A stretch of DNA of 64,000 nt from Diphasiastrum complanatum. Lineage: Eukaryota; Streptophyta; Lycopodiopsida; Lycopodiales; Lycopodiaceae. The notes below the pieces were generated by a model that ran no database searches, was not told the origin of the DNA, and worked only from the letters and a program-made list of their open reading frames with translations. The stretch covers positions 18,462,244 to 18,526,243 of the forward strand of contig CM055100.1 in the NCBI GenBank assembly GCA_029204225.1, given 5' to 3'. Position numbers and translations under genes: made by a program. Positions 7,590-11,032 of the stretch are shown one piece after another (the first letter of the stretch is position 1; every line of letters begins with the position of its first letter).

Positions 7590-7746
7590 GATATCGGATC
7601 AACGCGCAGGATGTAAGAGTAAAATCTACAACGGAAACAAGCATGCGTTGAACCGATATCAAAAAAATTTGATTGAATATCGGATCAGCACGCACGTTGG
7701 GAAAATAAACCAATCAATAACTACAAGGGCGCATCGAATTGATATT
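7590..7746. repeat. paired inverted-repeat modules A (7590-7660) and B (7676-7746)
   Basis: Each module is 71 bp with outward-facing GATATCGRWTCAACGCGC-type ends in inverted orientation and an unrelated core of about 35 bp. Module A runs from GATATCGGATCAACGCGC to GCGTTGAACCGATATC. Module B is more diverged (ATATCGGATCAGCACGC to GCGCATCGAATTGATATT). Both lie inside the 198-nt intron 7562-7759 of the protease and make up most of it. Confidence 0.8.
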
Positions 7747-7851
7747 GAAAAATTTATACCTCTGCATCAACCATTTTCAGCTTTGAGTATGCTTTTGCAT
7801 TTGGTATTGGAAAGAGTTCCAGTATTTTCTGTATATGGGTCCTGGCAATTT

Positions 7852-7976
7852 TGTGTGTGTGTGTGTGTGTGTGTGTGTGTGTGTGTGTGTGTGTGTGTGT
7901 GTGTGTGTGTGTGTGTGTGTGTGTGTGTGTGTGTGTGTGTGTGTGTGTGTGTGTGTGTGTGTGTGTGTGTGTGTGT
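7852..7976. repeat. (GT)n microsatellite, about 62 units
   Basis: A perfect GT run of 125 bp. It lies in what would be an intron of the protease pseudogene, immediately upstream (minus strand) of the exon at 7841-7760. Confidence 0.97.
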
Positions 7977-8316
7977 AATAGAGTTCATCTTCAAACAAAC
8001 TGGATTACACACACCCTCATCATTGACGTTTAGGGACAACACATATAAGCTCTAATGATCACTGAAATCAGAAAACAAGAAATTTATGAGAATCAATGTG
8101 AAATCAAAATTCATATGAAAAATTCAATAAAATAAAATCTGAAAAATAGACATTTGTTATGTATGGCAACACGAGAATTGGAGTCCCTAGTCTGACGTAT
8201 TGGAACATATCATCGTGCAAACTTTTGAAATCAGGGAAATCAAATGCTGCCATGAATTGAAGGGGAAACAATGCAACATCTATAAACAATGGGGTCTAGA
8301 AGAACTCCATCCAACA

Positions 8317-8775
8317 CTAAATTGCCCCACCTCCTACATTGTGCCCTAGCATTTTATCCCTACTTTCTAATTCACTAGTATCTAAACTAGAGAGGGGGAG
8401 ACCAGCATTGGTCTTTGGCATTCTAAAATTGTATCGAGGACCTAAACCTTTAAGATATGTGTTTAACAATTGGTCATACTGTACATATTGAGAACTATTT
8501 ACCAAGGCAAGTGCAGGGGGTGACAAAAAGTAACACTAATAAACCACATAAAGAATTGTCATTCAAGATTGATTCTACCTTTACACTAACAAAATCATCT
8601 AAATTGCTTCCAACAACAGGAGGATAAGAACTAATATTTACGGGTTTAGGAGGAGGAGGAGATTTAGGAGGTGGAGATTGGTTAGGAGAGGAAGATTTAG
8701 CAGGAGAAGTTAAAGATGGAGTGGAAGGAGAAGAAGGAGACTTAGGAGGAGAATGCCTAGAAGAAAGAGTAATAT
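8317..8775 (-). other. Pro/Ser-rich coding remnant downstream of the H3-like ORF
   Basis: The minus strand just after the H3-like ORF has an open frame of Ser-Pro-Pro-Lys repeats (about 8770-8540). A frame change follows, then a 69-codon ORF (8526-8317) with the stretch YDQLLNTYLKGLGPRYNFRM. A single frameshift near 8790 would put the Pro-rich part in line with the H3-like protein, so it may be a lost C-terminal tail or a separate gene. No domain recognised. Confidence 0.35.
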
Positions 8776-9354
8776 TCAGAGGAATGGCTTGAAAAAATCC
8801 CTTGCTTTAGATGGAGGGTTGAGAGACCTCTTCTTCTTTGAAACACTCCCGCTTTGTATAAGAATAACAAACCGAATTGGTTGAGATTGCTTTCGTTTTC
8901 TCCTCTCTGAATCTTGTTTTGGAGGAGAGGAGGGAACAGGTCTAAAGTATTCAGCAAACTTGTCATATGTGTCCCGAAGCCTGAACACAATGTTGAAATC
9001 CTTGGGCATGATGGTCACCCTCTTGGCATGGACAGCTGCAACAACAGTATCAGAAAAAATTTTCACCTGAAAATTCTCATATGCTGTGTGCAGGGCCTCA
9101 ATTGCCGTTACTGTCCATCTCACATCTACAGATAGACTTCTTGTCACCTGCCTGATGAACCTCTGTATGTGAGATTTCGAAATCAGAAAATTATTTGTCT
9201 TCTGAACCTTTTGAATATCCTTGAGCCAGGGTGGGTCTCTTCTTCTGCCCCTTGGCCTAGGAGGAGGTGGTGGTGGTTGTGGATTTCCCTGACCCGCATC
9301 TGAAATTGGTATTTCACCTGATTGCCCTCGTGCCATCTGCTTGGTCCGCGCCAT
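8776..9354 (-). CDS. divergent histone H3-like protein
   Basis: 192 codons. Residues 44-127 align without gaps to the histone H3 fold, from the alpha-N helix (LKDIQKVQKT) to alpha 3, with the near-identical block AVHAKRVTIMPKD at 107-119. The N-terminus keeps MARTKQ, so Arg2, Thr3 and Lys4 are present, but position 9 is Gly instead of Lys. The rest of the tail is replaced by a Gln/Gly/Pro stretch (a run of Pro at 27-32) and Arg-rich RPRGRRR. RWT in loop 1, FSD and KDF recall centromeric CenH3, yet loop 1 has the canonical H3 length. A basic tail of about 60 residues (RRKRKQ) follows the fold. Histone H3 wraps DNA in nucleosomes; whether this one enters nucleosomes is unknown. A single open frame, no introns, and ATG at 9354 chosen because it starts MARTKQ. 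Module C begins 7 bp upstream. Confidence 0.75.
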   Translation of the reverse strand: MARTKQMARGQSGEIPISDAGQGNPQPPPPPPRPRGRRRDPPWLKDIQKVQKTNNFLISKSHIQRFIRQVTRSLSVDVRWTVTAIEALHTAYENFQVKIFSDTVVAAVHAKRVTIMPKDFNIVFRLRDTYDKFAEYFRPVPSSPPKQDSERRKRKQSQPIRFVILIQSGSVSKKKRSLNPPSKARDFFKPFL

Positions 9355-9360
9355 TACTGT

Positions 9361-9527
9361 GTAGTGGCAGATCAGCGCGCGATAATGTTGATTTCAGGAT
9401 CAGACCTCAGGTCGGGCACGTCGAAGCGATACCTGAGCTAAACAATTTCATTAGGTGGTAGTGGATGGGCGCAAACGAGTAGGAACGGATTGAAGGAAGT
9501 TGTTTTCGAGCGCGTTGAATCGATATC
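9361..9527. repeat. paired inverted-repeat modules C (9361-9432) and D (9457-9527)
   Basis: Module C has GATCAGCGCGC on the left and GCACGTCGAAGCGATAC on the right. Module D has a weakly matching left end (GGTAGTGGATGGGCGC) and a perfect right end (GCGCGTTGAATCGATATC). Both lie immediately upstream of the H3-like start codon (minus strand). Their cores do not resemble each other or those of the other modules. Confidence 0.65.
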
Positions 9528-10428
9528 GCATAGATACAAATAACTATAAGCAAAAAAATTTCAGCATCGTCGATCAGTATATATAGAGAAAGTCAGAAAT
9601 GATTGCAAACGTGATGGTTTGCAAACGTGGTGGCTCGTATTACGATGATGATTACCCAGAGGCTTGTCAATCAAATCAATCTAAATATCCATCAGTCATC
9701 AAAATGATTAGTCCATATCAAATTAACTAGAACTAATTTCAAATAAAGTATGGTCACATCTACAATTAATCACACTTCTACCATTTAATGCTGAAATCGA
9801 CAGTTTTAAGCTTTAAATATAAGACCTTTTTTATATCCAATAATTATGATTTTGGAAAATTCCAAAGGCCAGATTTTCACCCGATAGCTAATCAACGCGC
9901 ATATAAAGCATTTGACAACCACAGTATGTATTCTCGCTCGCTCATCCGATATTGGACGGAATATGAATGATCAAAGCTTGATTGATAGATTCTGCATAAC
10001 TTTGGCCAGTATGAAGAGTCTTTCGAATCAAGCTTTGATCGTGCATATAGGGTCCAATAGTTTCAAAAATTTCGATAATATTTTGCTCCTGGAATAGCGA
10101 TTCGACGCACACAGTCCAAATGCAGCAAATACATCATCTTCCAGGCATGCTGATCCGATATCCCATATGTAGAAAAATCATACTGGAACGCATAATGAAA
10201 GACTTATGAAAATGTTCAGAATGAACATTATCTCAAAAGAAAAAATTTCATCTTTACGATGCTTAAATAGGACAAAATTGTAATAAATTTTCTCATTCAT
10301 GTTTTTCAATGATATCCATTAATCAATTGTTTATAATTTTTTTAATGATTATTCTAGGAGGCTAGTGATTGTCTATTTAATGTATTCCGGCGCAGGGCTA
10401 ATGATGATTCGTTGAATCTAGTACTAGA
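9528..10428. repeat. modules E (9883-9953) and F (10093-10162) in otherwise non-coding DNA
   Basis: Module E runs from GATAGCTAATCAACGCGC to GCTCATCCGATATT, 71 bp. Module F runs from AATAGCGATTCGACGCAC to GCATGCTGATCCGATATC, 70 bp. A direct repeat of CAAACGTGRTGG lies at about 9607-9633, and ATCAAAGCTTGAT with its variants at 9968 and 10026. No convincing ORF was found between the two modules or to the left of E, so this pair has no obvious gene attached. Confidence 0.65.
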
Positions 10429-10833
10429 CTAGTTAATGTATTTCGGCGTAGGTATGTAGAACACAAAAGCCATTCCTTTGATTAGAAGGCGACATATTCT
10501 TTTGTGGATATCACAGTATATATTTCTTTTGAAATGGTCATGCAGGTTAGAGTACTTTCTATTGTGTTTATGCTTAGAGGATGGTTGAGAATGTACAAGG
10601 TCCTGAAAATGAACGAAACAAAAATTATCTACGTCCATGATAGGAGTACTAATAATCTGAGAAAAATTATCAAGATAAGAAATTAAATTATAACGATTCT
10701 CATAAACTAGCTTATCAATATCAAAGAGAGCAAAAAAAATACTAGCAAAATACTCTAATTTGACAGATGGAATGTCACTGGTATTAAAAAAATCCAAAAG
10801 TTTGTCATCTGAGGCCATGGAGGAACTAGCCAT
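10429..10833 (-). CDS. hypothetical protein in the H3-like cluster
   Basis: 134 codons on the minus strand from an ATG at 10833 in a Ser-rich start (MASSSMASDD). The protein is rich in Phe, Asn, Asp and Tyr and has no membrane segment or motif I can name. The codons are AT-rich like the rest of the cluster. Paired modules G and H lie directly upstream (10843-11032), the same arrangement as for the H3-like ORF. Could be a real gene of an unknown element or chance openness in AT-rich DNA; the matching upstream context favours the first. Confidence 0.35.
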   Translation of the reverse strand: MASSSMASDDKLLDFFNTSDIPSVKLEYFASIFFALFDIDKLVYENRYNLISYLDNFSQIISTPIMDVDNFCFVHFQDLVHSQPSSKHKHNRKYSNLHDHFKRNIYCDIHKRICRLLIKGMAFVFYIPTPKYIN

Positions 10834-10842
10834 ATTGAATCC

Positions 10843-11032
10843 GATATCGGCTCAACGTGTCAGATAAATATTGGTGGAGGAATAAAGCAAAGTGTGCGCG
10901 CTGATCCGATATGGTAAGATCGAGATTGAAATTTTTTGAAAAGCACTAGTCGGAAGTGGCTGATATCGATTCAACGCGCCTGAATGAATACGAGCATGCA
11001 CGACAAGGGATGGCGCACGTCGATTCGATATC
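10843..11032. repeat. paired inverted-repeat modules G (10843-10912) and H (10962-11032)
   Basis: Module G runs from GATATCGGCTCAACGTGT to GCGCGCTGATCCGATAT, and module H from GATATCGATTCAACGCGC to CGTCGATTCGATATC. Lengths are 70 and 71 bp. They end 10 bp upstream of the ATG of the 10833 ORF. H is the most regular module of the set. Confidence 0.8.

Follow-up and report, generated by a model that had tools for sequence, protein, structure and literature searches.

Eight short modules in the genome of the clubmoss Diphasiastrum complanatum are putative operators (compound sites for protein binding) in a multi-gene mobile element that is bounded by terminal inverted repeats (TIRs) and present in many copies, a reading to which we assign a probability of roughly 0.55. 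Each module comprises two inverted 18-bp arms of sequence RATATCGRWTCRRCGCGC on either side of a core, and all eight are located in what we call the window, the whole 64-kb stretch of DNA that was analysed (Table 1). Such modules occur in many copies genome-wide, belong to a larger element, and combine common arms and a constant spacing with unrelated cores; moreover, the CD and GH pairs are positioned just upstream of start codons. In the mechanism that we propose, the two sites of a module would lie five helical turns apart on the same face of the DNA, where they could be occupied by a dimer or tetramer, and the presence of two modules per control region (more in some copies) would permit the joint switching of element genes. 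We infer from the sequence that the arms are bound by a protein, which might repress, activate or synapse, and which, by analogy with transposon-encoded regulators, would be encoded by the element itself.

Table 1. Coordinates of the modules and associated features in the window
Feature	Coordinates	Strand	Remarks
Module A	7590-7660		arms 7590-7607 and 7643-7660, core 35 bp
Module B	7676-7746		arms 7676-7693 and 7729-7746, core 35 bp
Module C	9363-9433		arms 9363-9380 and 9416-9433
Module D	9457-9527		arms 9457-9474 (weak) and 9510-9527
Module E	9883-9953
Module F	10093-10162		core 34 bp, offset 52
Module G	10843-10913
Module H	10962-11032
Histone H3-like ORF	8776-9354	-	192 aa, starts MARTKQ, C-terminal extension
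ORF downstream of G/H	10429-10833	-	134 aa
Rearranged, truncated copy of the TIR element	5507-12022		blocks e, b, c, a
Element block e	5507-6060		inverted
Element block b	6057-10454
Element block c	10450-11139		inverted
Element block a	11137-12022		inverted
Imperfect palindrome between E and F	9950-10059		34-bp arms
Remnant of a distantly related element	30302-31431	-	homologues of element ORFs d1 (53% identity) and d2 (41% identity)

Common arms and spacing with unrelated cores

An earlier note on this DNA had described eight modules with inverted ends, of constant length, with mutually unrelated cores and without another full copy in the 64 kb. The modules are real: when scored with a position weight matrix (PWM) that leaves out the module in question, their arm pairs reach 35-50 bits, whereas the maximum is 10.5 bits in the rest of the window and 17.8 bits across 15 simulated windows. 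The coordinates given earlier stand for most modules and were amended for two, since from their inner sites C is located at 9363-9433 and G at 10843-10913. A degenerate arm pattern that tolerates up to 3 mismatches matched 14 times in the window when 0.22 matches were expected, and 0 of 100 shuffles reached 14. These matches all fall inside the module cluster and account for 14 of its 16 arms, with only the left arm of C and that of D too weak to register; like the PWM scan, they bear out the absence of another full copy. Lone arms that score like the weakest true arms may be present elsewhere in the window, as the best single arm-like site outside the cluster, which is located in a Copia LTR, scores 15.5 bits, and the weakest genuine arms score 11.2, 15.4 and 15.5 bits. 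The ratio of observed to expected CpG is 1.60 in the modules and 0.43 in the window as a whole. (No tRNA genes, and no Rfam families at the gathering threshold, were found in the window.)

The starts of the two arms are offset by 53 bp in seven of the eight window modules, with a core of 35 bp, and by 52 bp in F, whose 34-bp core recurs in all eight of the copies assigned to it, the window copy included. For the seven 35-bp cores (that of F was left out) the identity in the best common orientation was 0.324, whereas shuffles gave 0.290 (sd 0.013, p 0.01) and local 35-mers 0.297 (p 0.063). This slight excess fits kinship between A and B, whose cores join one cluster in the genome-wide data and are the exception to the claim that the cores are unrelated.

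A genome-wide search for single arms returned 7,533 arm sites, as compared to 62 for a reversed-pattern control, and the modules are thus not private to this locus. A strict arm-pair pattern with a free gap of 20-50 bp matched 287 places (control, 0), and among the 50 of these that were listed the gap was 35 bp in 43, 36 bp in three, 34 bp in two, and 29 bp and 31 bp in one each. An occurrence of the modules in viruses or prokaryotes was considered and dropped, as the exact arm pair was not found in viral_contigs or genome_contigs. From the fetched loci we assembled a set of 79 distinct modules on a single contig, leaving the offset free from 30 to 80 bp; the offset was 53 bp in 56 modules, 52 bp in 15, 54 bp in five, and 51, 37 and 36 bp in one each, such that 77 of the 79 have offsets of 51-54 bp. 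Together with the eight from the window these modules sort into 17 clusters by core, and an offset of 51-54 bp applies to 15 of the clusters. From copy to copy of the element a given module retains its core, whereas between modules, and in other element families, the cores are unrelated and the spacing is the same. As expected of paired sites, therefore, arm sequence and spacing are common across modules and families and the spacer is free. Decay from one common sequence does not explain the cores, and these findings support the earlier suggestion that a site geometry, rather than one interior, is under selection.

The possibility that the modules are instead an ordinary tiny MITE family, repeatedly inserted near genes, was raised in the earlier note and is one to which we give almost no credence. 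The modules are short, have inverted ends and are, as that possibility entails, scattered genome-wide; in addition, when the edges are allowed to shift by up to 3 bp, B is flanked by a 6-bp direct repeat (at most 3 bp at the other modules), although direct repeats of at least 6 bp were found at 60 of 2,000 random places. At the exact module edges, however, there is a direct repeat in none of the eight, the cores fall into 17 clusters and are unrelated between modules (A and B excepted), each is kept at its own position in the element, and the spacing is constant. A family of this kind does not fit because the modules, where longer stretches were fetched, belong for the most part to larger elements, and because they have neither target duplications at their edges nor a common core.

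We also consider it very unlikely that the modules act at the RNA level, as hairpins in 5'-UTRs or introns that influence translation, splicing or the production of small RNA. Although the module pairs seem to fall in transcribed non-coding stretches, and arm-to-arm stems appear in the folds of A, G and H and in part in that of B, the full stem is not formed by C, D, E or F, and no Rfam family was matched at the gathering threshold. Moreover, the two arms of a module do not covary: in the window the complementarity between arms was 11.4 of 18 positions, as compared to 12.4 upon permutation (p 0.98), and for 89 modules it was 12.47, as compared to 12.62 upon permutation and 12.44 upon permutation within orthologous sets. 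Of the roles listed in the earlier note, the hairpin is thus disfavoured, and the constant offset, the unrelated cores and the lack of covariation leave paired protein-binding sites as the leading candidate.

If the arms are bound by a protein, that protein might be a host regulator that the element exploits (a captured host operator) rather than one of its own. Recruitment of host factors is common among transposons, and the arm ends partially resemble plant motifs such as the CGCG-type sites of CAMTA proteins and the CACGCGC site of FHY3/FAR1. The 18-bp arm nevertheless amounts to 23.2 bits, which exceeds such motifs, and CACGCGC requires a C at position 12, where only 3 of 178 arms have one. 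We regard this alternative as distinctly unlikely.

A multicopy element with terminal inverted repeats

The module cluster in the window is a rearranged and truncated copy of a multicopy element that has 35-bp TIRs and measures approximately 8-12 kb when long; neither TIR was found in the window copy. Genome-wide, the left TIR was detected at 1,041 places and the right TIR at 1,339, as compared to 0 for the controls. The blocks of the element align between copies, and, as in DNA transposons, the TIRs are located at sharp ends that the copies have in common. The termini are CATTAGGGG, and the TIR starts with CATTA. In five of six fetched 20-kb regions, modules were found inside larger elements. 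Target-site duplications were absent from all eight of the independent complete insertions: there was no repeat of 2-12 bp at the exact ends and none of at least 5 bp when shifts were allowed. (At one insertion, L031, five of six flanking bases match.) No DDE transposase domain was matched by Pfam above the cut-off in the blocks scanned, the copies being decayed. The d gene is a candidate transposase of the element.

The palindrome between E and F is also present in three other copies (R5, R2 and R3), and the E-F distance is 209-213 bp in six other copies, which argues that the palindrome belongs to the element and rules out a nested MITE private to the window copy. Note that no weight is given to a AAAAATTT block common to the four gaps between modules (2 of 400 random sets), since it was picked out post hoc and with the palindrome excised from the E/F gap.

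Membership of the element invites a different reading, namely that the modules are internal transposase or synapsis sites, comparable to subterminal repeats, that are kept for mobility and not for gene regulation. The sites of multimeric transposases are typically inverted pairs at a fixed distance, the modules are inside a TIR element, a short element in L031 retains modules between its TIRs, and a second family that has a piece of the same left end has other module cores. However, the modules are kilobases from the element ends rather than terminal (in R5 they occupy 9853-12989 of an element spanning 7127-15391), the final 3 kb before the right end is free of module pairs in both R3 and R2, and CD and GH are at start codons. 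On balance we think this reading rather unlikely.

Element genes and the modules beside them

Three ORFs of the element are under purifying selection. The H3-like ORF, which matched the Pfam Histone family (2.1e-21) and H3 chains in the PDB, was present in 11 distinct loci, the window included, and had a pN/pS of 0.43 in its own frame as compared to 0.74 and 0.79 in the shifted frames. For the 134-aa G/H ORF, which has no relative in Pfam or the PDB, the corresponding values from eight copies were 0.38, 0.89 and 0.79, and for the SQY exon pN/pS in its own frame was well below that of its shifted frames. The same test did not demonstrate selection on d1, d2 or e1. No viral relatives were found in viral_contigs for three ORFs that were searched, the H3-like protein being among the queries.

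In the window, 8 bp separate module C from the ATG of the H3-like ORF downstream of it; the distance is 8 bp in L018 and L024 and 11 bp in L028, and none was found in L023. The sequence TATATAT occurs 51 bp beyond the outer edge of D in the window and 51 or 60 bp beyond it in four of five other copies. Similarly, G precedes the ATG of the 134-aa ORF by 9 bp in the window and in all six other copies, and TATAAAT occurs 80 bp beyond the outer edge of H in the window and 80-82 bp beyond it in four of six other copies. For E, the distance to a following ATG is 10 bp in both L013 and L028 and 2 bp in L011, and there is no ATG within 30-40 bp of the E/F pair in the window or in four of seven other copies. 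The motif TATAWAW was absent beyond F in all seven copies, and was lacking in five of ten copies of B, one of five of D and two of six of H.

The sequence suggests an intron in an element gene as the location of the AB pair. We had entertained the idea that AB is a promoter with a start ATG 5 bp from A, but pooled codon counts favour, suggestively only, another frame and an intron; immediately after A, the frame under the strongest constraint differs from that of the ATG, and the non-coding control there gave 0.37-0.63. (An LRR-like reading of the exons around A and B was also dropped, as a protein search that allowed E values up to 10 gave no relative and Pfam gave no match.)

Conservation among copies tempers the operator reading. 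In alignments found via the 250-bp flanks, identity to the window copy was 0.863 for arms, 0.838 for cores and 0.864 for 40-bp flanks, and arms exceeded cores in seven of the eight modules and flanks in only four. Recent copies thus give no special protection of the arms, and the sites are not better kept among copies than their surroundings, as operators should be. In modules detected by their arms the values were 0.862 for arms and 0.796 for cores, with arms ahead in all eight, figures that are inflated by the arm-based detection; likewise, a count in which arms exceeded cores in 73 of 73 cases is biased both by arm-based detection and by selection for low core identity. Because the flank-anchored repeat of this comparison was much weaker, our confidence in the operator reading is lower.

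Relation to known systems

Spm/En, of the CACTA group, is a multicopy plant TIR element with sites of approximately 12 bp for TnpA, often in inverted pairs, near its promoter and ends. The clubmoss element is likewise a multicopy plant DNA element with TIRs and repeated short sites, those of Spm being bound by an element protein, TnpA, but it has 18-bp arms whose spacing is fixed at 53 bp and which are located next to several internal genes, its TIR starts with CATTA rather than CACTA, and a 3-bp target-site duplication is absent from eight of eight insertions. Spy transposons are eukaryotic DNA elements that have TIRs, make no target-site duplication and use an AAATTT-type target. The clubmoss element resembles them in its TIRs and lack of duplication, and differs in that no AAATTT-type target was seen by eye in its flanks and no transposase match was found.

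With Polinton/Maverick elements and Teratorn, as far as the available part of the giant-element review goes (PMC6431247), the clubmoss element has in common the presence of several genes between TIRs; it is smaller, lacks a target duplication and gave no Pfam match to polymerase, integrase or capsid in the window part or in blocks e and d (d on one strand; the copies are decayed). In that part of the review the word "histone" does not occur. Viral histones also represent a histone gene on a mobile or viral genome, whereas the clubmoss H3-like protein has an ARTKQ start and is encoded in a plant chromosomal repeat. SIRCs of Arabidopsis are, in the accessible part of their description, short repeats broken by diverse sequence and linked to mobile elements (PMC10342631); they are direct repeats, whereas the clubmoss modules are inverted pairs at a fixed spacing inside a coding element.

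Tentatively, and with the odds against it, the element could be an undescribed linear multi-gene DNA replicon of lycophytes, virus-like or transposon, that is outside the known transposon superfamilies. Such a replicon would have 35-bp TIRs, integrate without target duplication and manage its chromatin with an H3-like histone-fold protein of its own, and its genes would form one regulon through a two-module operator in which only the 18-bp arms and the five-turn spacing are fixed.

The operator reading would make the modules a code of arm sequence and spacing alone, across unrelated cores and more than one element family, and hence a natural experiment on the recognition of geometry by a multimeric DNA-binding protein. 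An element of a plant genome that combines TIRs and an H3-like gene with selected orphan proteins and a lack of target duplication would, moreover, add to the mobile genomes known to carry histones.

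Module geometry in the window and across the genome

Modules A–H, the eight two-armed units of the window, each consist of two inverted 18-bp arms around a core. In leave-one-module-out position-weight scoring, with thresholds derived from the window's own arms, the eight gave pair scores of 35–50 bits, as against at most 10.5 bits in the rest of the window and at most 17.8 in simulated sequence, which bears out the earlier note's claim of eight inverted-repeat modules. The distance between arm starts is 53 bp in seven of them and 52 in one. A degenerate arm pattern allowing up to 3 mismatches matches 14 of the 16 module arms and nothing elsewhere in the 64-kb window; the claim that this stretch holds no other copies stands for full copies. 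(Arm-like sites in two Copia LTRs are probably chance; see the table.)

Genome-wide searches covered the 1.74-Gb assembly, in which the window is contig C9:18462244–18526243, and give lower bounds. When 2 mismatches or fewer are allowed, the arm pattern occurs at at least 7,533 places, versus at least 62 for the reversed pattern. A strict search for arm pairs, in which the gap could vary between 20 and 50 bp, gave at least 287 places (control, 0); among 50 such matches listed, the gap was 35 bp in 43, 36 in three, 34 in two, and 29 and 31 in one each. Offsets scored freely from 30 to 80 in 79 distinct modules from fetched loci of another contig, C1, were 53 in 56 modules, 52 in 15, 54 in five, and 51, 36 and 37 in one each.

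Together with the window's eight, these modules form 17 core clusters (cut of 10; none of 200 shuffled pairs scored above 5), ten of them without a counterpart in the window, the fetched loci being mostly from C1 and some, L025 and L026, looking mutually duplicate. The cores had been described as mutually unrelated, and C to H indeed occupy a cluster each, but A and B share one. The geometry is common to the modules, and the cores are not. Copies with additional modules were seen in L032, which has three consecutive modules at the H/G control region, and in L028, which suggests that modules duplicate as units.

Features of the window and of other loci.
Sequence	Position	Strand	Feature
Window	5507–12022		rearranged element copy
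Window	7590–11032		modules A–H
Window	8776–9354	–	divergent H3-like protein: ARTKQ start, proline-rich linker, C-terminal extension
Window	10429–10833	–	G/H gene, 134 aa
Window	14800–16640	+	decayed transposase of hAT type with a DUF659 and a dimerisation domain
Window	19931–21913		phospholipase D ORF, 100% identity to D. complanatum O6H91_09G029300 over 96% of length
Window	29864–30121		further piece beside the d1/d2 relative, with HPCLYCM; echoes SKHPRLYCM of element block e
Window	30302–31431	–	distant relative of element d1/d2 proteins; no modules detected nearby
Window	34178; 39529		Copia LTRs, arm-like site of 13–15.5 bits close to their 3' ends
L008/L019–L020, joined	9831; 9915		module pair with other cores; no matching TIR within the 20 kb fetched
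L031	601–2174		1.6-kb short derivative with both TIRs; two module cores nearly palindromic themselves

A larger element with terminal inverted repeats

The modules are parts of a larger element. Around each of the first eight exact sites, two of which (L004 and L005) are the same place, 3 kb of DNA was fetched, and module cores could be assigned to the window's in seven of these loci; the pair type of L008 differs. Five of six fetched 20-kb regions, R5 itself included, contain copies alignable with R5, and the window aligns with R5, R1 and R3. The R5 element spans about 8.3 kb, carries the full set of modules, A to F in alphabetical order followed by H and G in inverted orientation, and is missing a 2.2–2.3 kb block present in R1, R2 and R3. 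The copy in the window is scrambled: its blocks run e, b, c, a, with every block except b inverted, and its G/H modules are oriented opposite to those of R5. As to the alternative of a tiny MITE family, the modules are scattered genome-wide, as it would have them, but in five of the six 20-kb regions they lie within a larger element, and their cores are not common.

Copies share sharp ends, CATTAGGGGATATYAGAACTCAAAATGGGCCCTTT on the left and CATTAGGGRAAATATGGGCTCAAAATGGGCCCTTT on the right, which with up to 3 mismatches occur at at least 1,041 and at least 1,339 places respectively (control 0 for each; the two match sets may overlap slightly). The window copy has no TIR in a search with up to 9 mismatches. 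Among the matches listed, opposed TIRs paired by eye are separated by 2.6 to 11.9 kb. Of nine complete insertions compared, one duplicates another; the exact ends of all eight independent insertions lack a 2–12 bp repeat, and shifting the ends by up to 3 gave no repeat of 5 bp or more (chance rate, 0.06). At the L031 ends, five of six bases match. Other module cores are seen in this short element, which has TIRs, and in L036, a second family that has part of the left end in common.

Tests for constraint on element proteins and arms

Histone (2.1e-21, in the H3-like ORF) was the only Pfam family to exceed its cut-off in the portion of the element within the window, and none was found in blocks e and d (for d, one strand scanned). 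Found in 11 distinct loci, window included, the H3-like ORF is 37–39% identical to nine of the ten database relatives that score best and 33% identical to the other one. (Its PPPPRPR stretch also occurs in O6H91_07G108800, annotated as a 105-aa Diphasiastrum histone-fold protein.) Its median dN/dS is 0.465 over 48 pairs, with 0.19–0.49 in 18 pairs with dS of at least 0.40 and 0.28–1.49 in closer pairs. For other element ORFs, medians from pairs with dS of at least 0.25 were as follows: the exon that starts SQY (the SQY exon), 0.26 (19 pairs); the G/H gene, 0.37 (10); d1, 0.455 (6); e2, 0.46 (11); and e1, 0.745 (6); d2 and the 11.1–11.5 kb ORF had zero such pairs. With shifted frames of the same pooled alignments as controls, own-frame pN/pS was 0.43 for the H3-like ORF (shifted, 0.74 and 0.79), 0.38 for the G/H gene (0.89, 0.79), 0.36 for the SQY exon (0.76, 1.15) and, weakly, 0.51 for e2 (0.68, 1.14); for d1, d2 and e1 it was not below both shifted frames and thus does not support selection on them.

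In modules detected by their arms, which favours good arms, identity was 0.862 for arms versus 0.796 for cores, with arms higher in all eight sets. When alignments were instead anchored on 250 bp of flank, arms had an identity of 0.863 to the window copy, cores one of 0.838 and 40-bp flanks one of 0.864; arms exceeded cores in seven of eight modules and flanks in four. Because arm identity in these alignments is about that of the flanks, close copies decay much like dead copies. The case for selection on the modules comes from the deep comparison, that is, one arm and one spacing across unrelated cores, and from CpG retention (observed/expected 1.60 in the window's modules versus 0.43 in the window). 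The arm holds 23.2 bits of information (178 examples), and the two arms of a module show no covariation: in 89 modules, 12.47 of 18 positions were identical, versus 12.62 when permuted and 12.44 when permuted within sets.

Neighbouring start codons and a putative repressor

Relative to the H3-like ATG, module C stands 8 bp upstream in the window, L018 and L024 and 11 bp upstream in L028; no such ATG was detected near C in L023. An ATG follows G at 9 bp both in the window and in all six other copies. For E, the ATG distance is 10 bp in two copies, L013 and L028, and 2 bp in L011, with no ATG in the window and four other copies. A TATAWAW motif occurs 51–60 bp beyond D in the window and four of five copies, 80–82 bp beyond H in the window and four of six, beyond B in five of ten, and beyond F in none of seven. 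A and B apparently lie within an intron, judging from splice sites read by eye. After A, the frame with the strongest constraint has a pooled pN/pS of 0.24 and that of the nearby ATG 0.56, to be compared with 0.37–0.63 in a non-coding control stretch.

We infer the binding, sign and identity of a putative arm-binding protein as follows. A dimer or tetramer bound to two sites on one DNA face would need the spacing to be fixed, here at about five helical turns, but would leave the core free, and two modules per control region would make cooperative binding or looping possible. The simplest effect of a complex between TATA box and ATG would be to block transcription or make it pause. The arms would then be operator sites, and the protein that binds them a repressor that regulates itself and holds the element silent.
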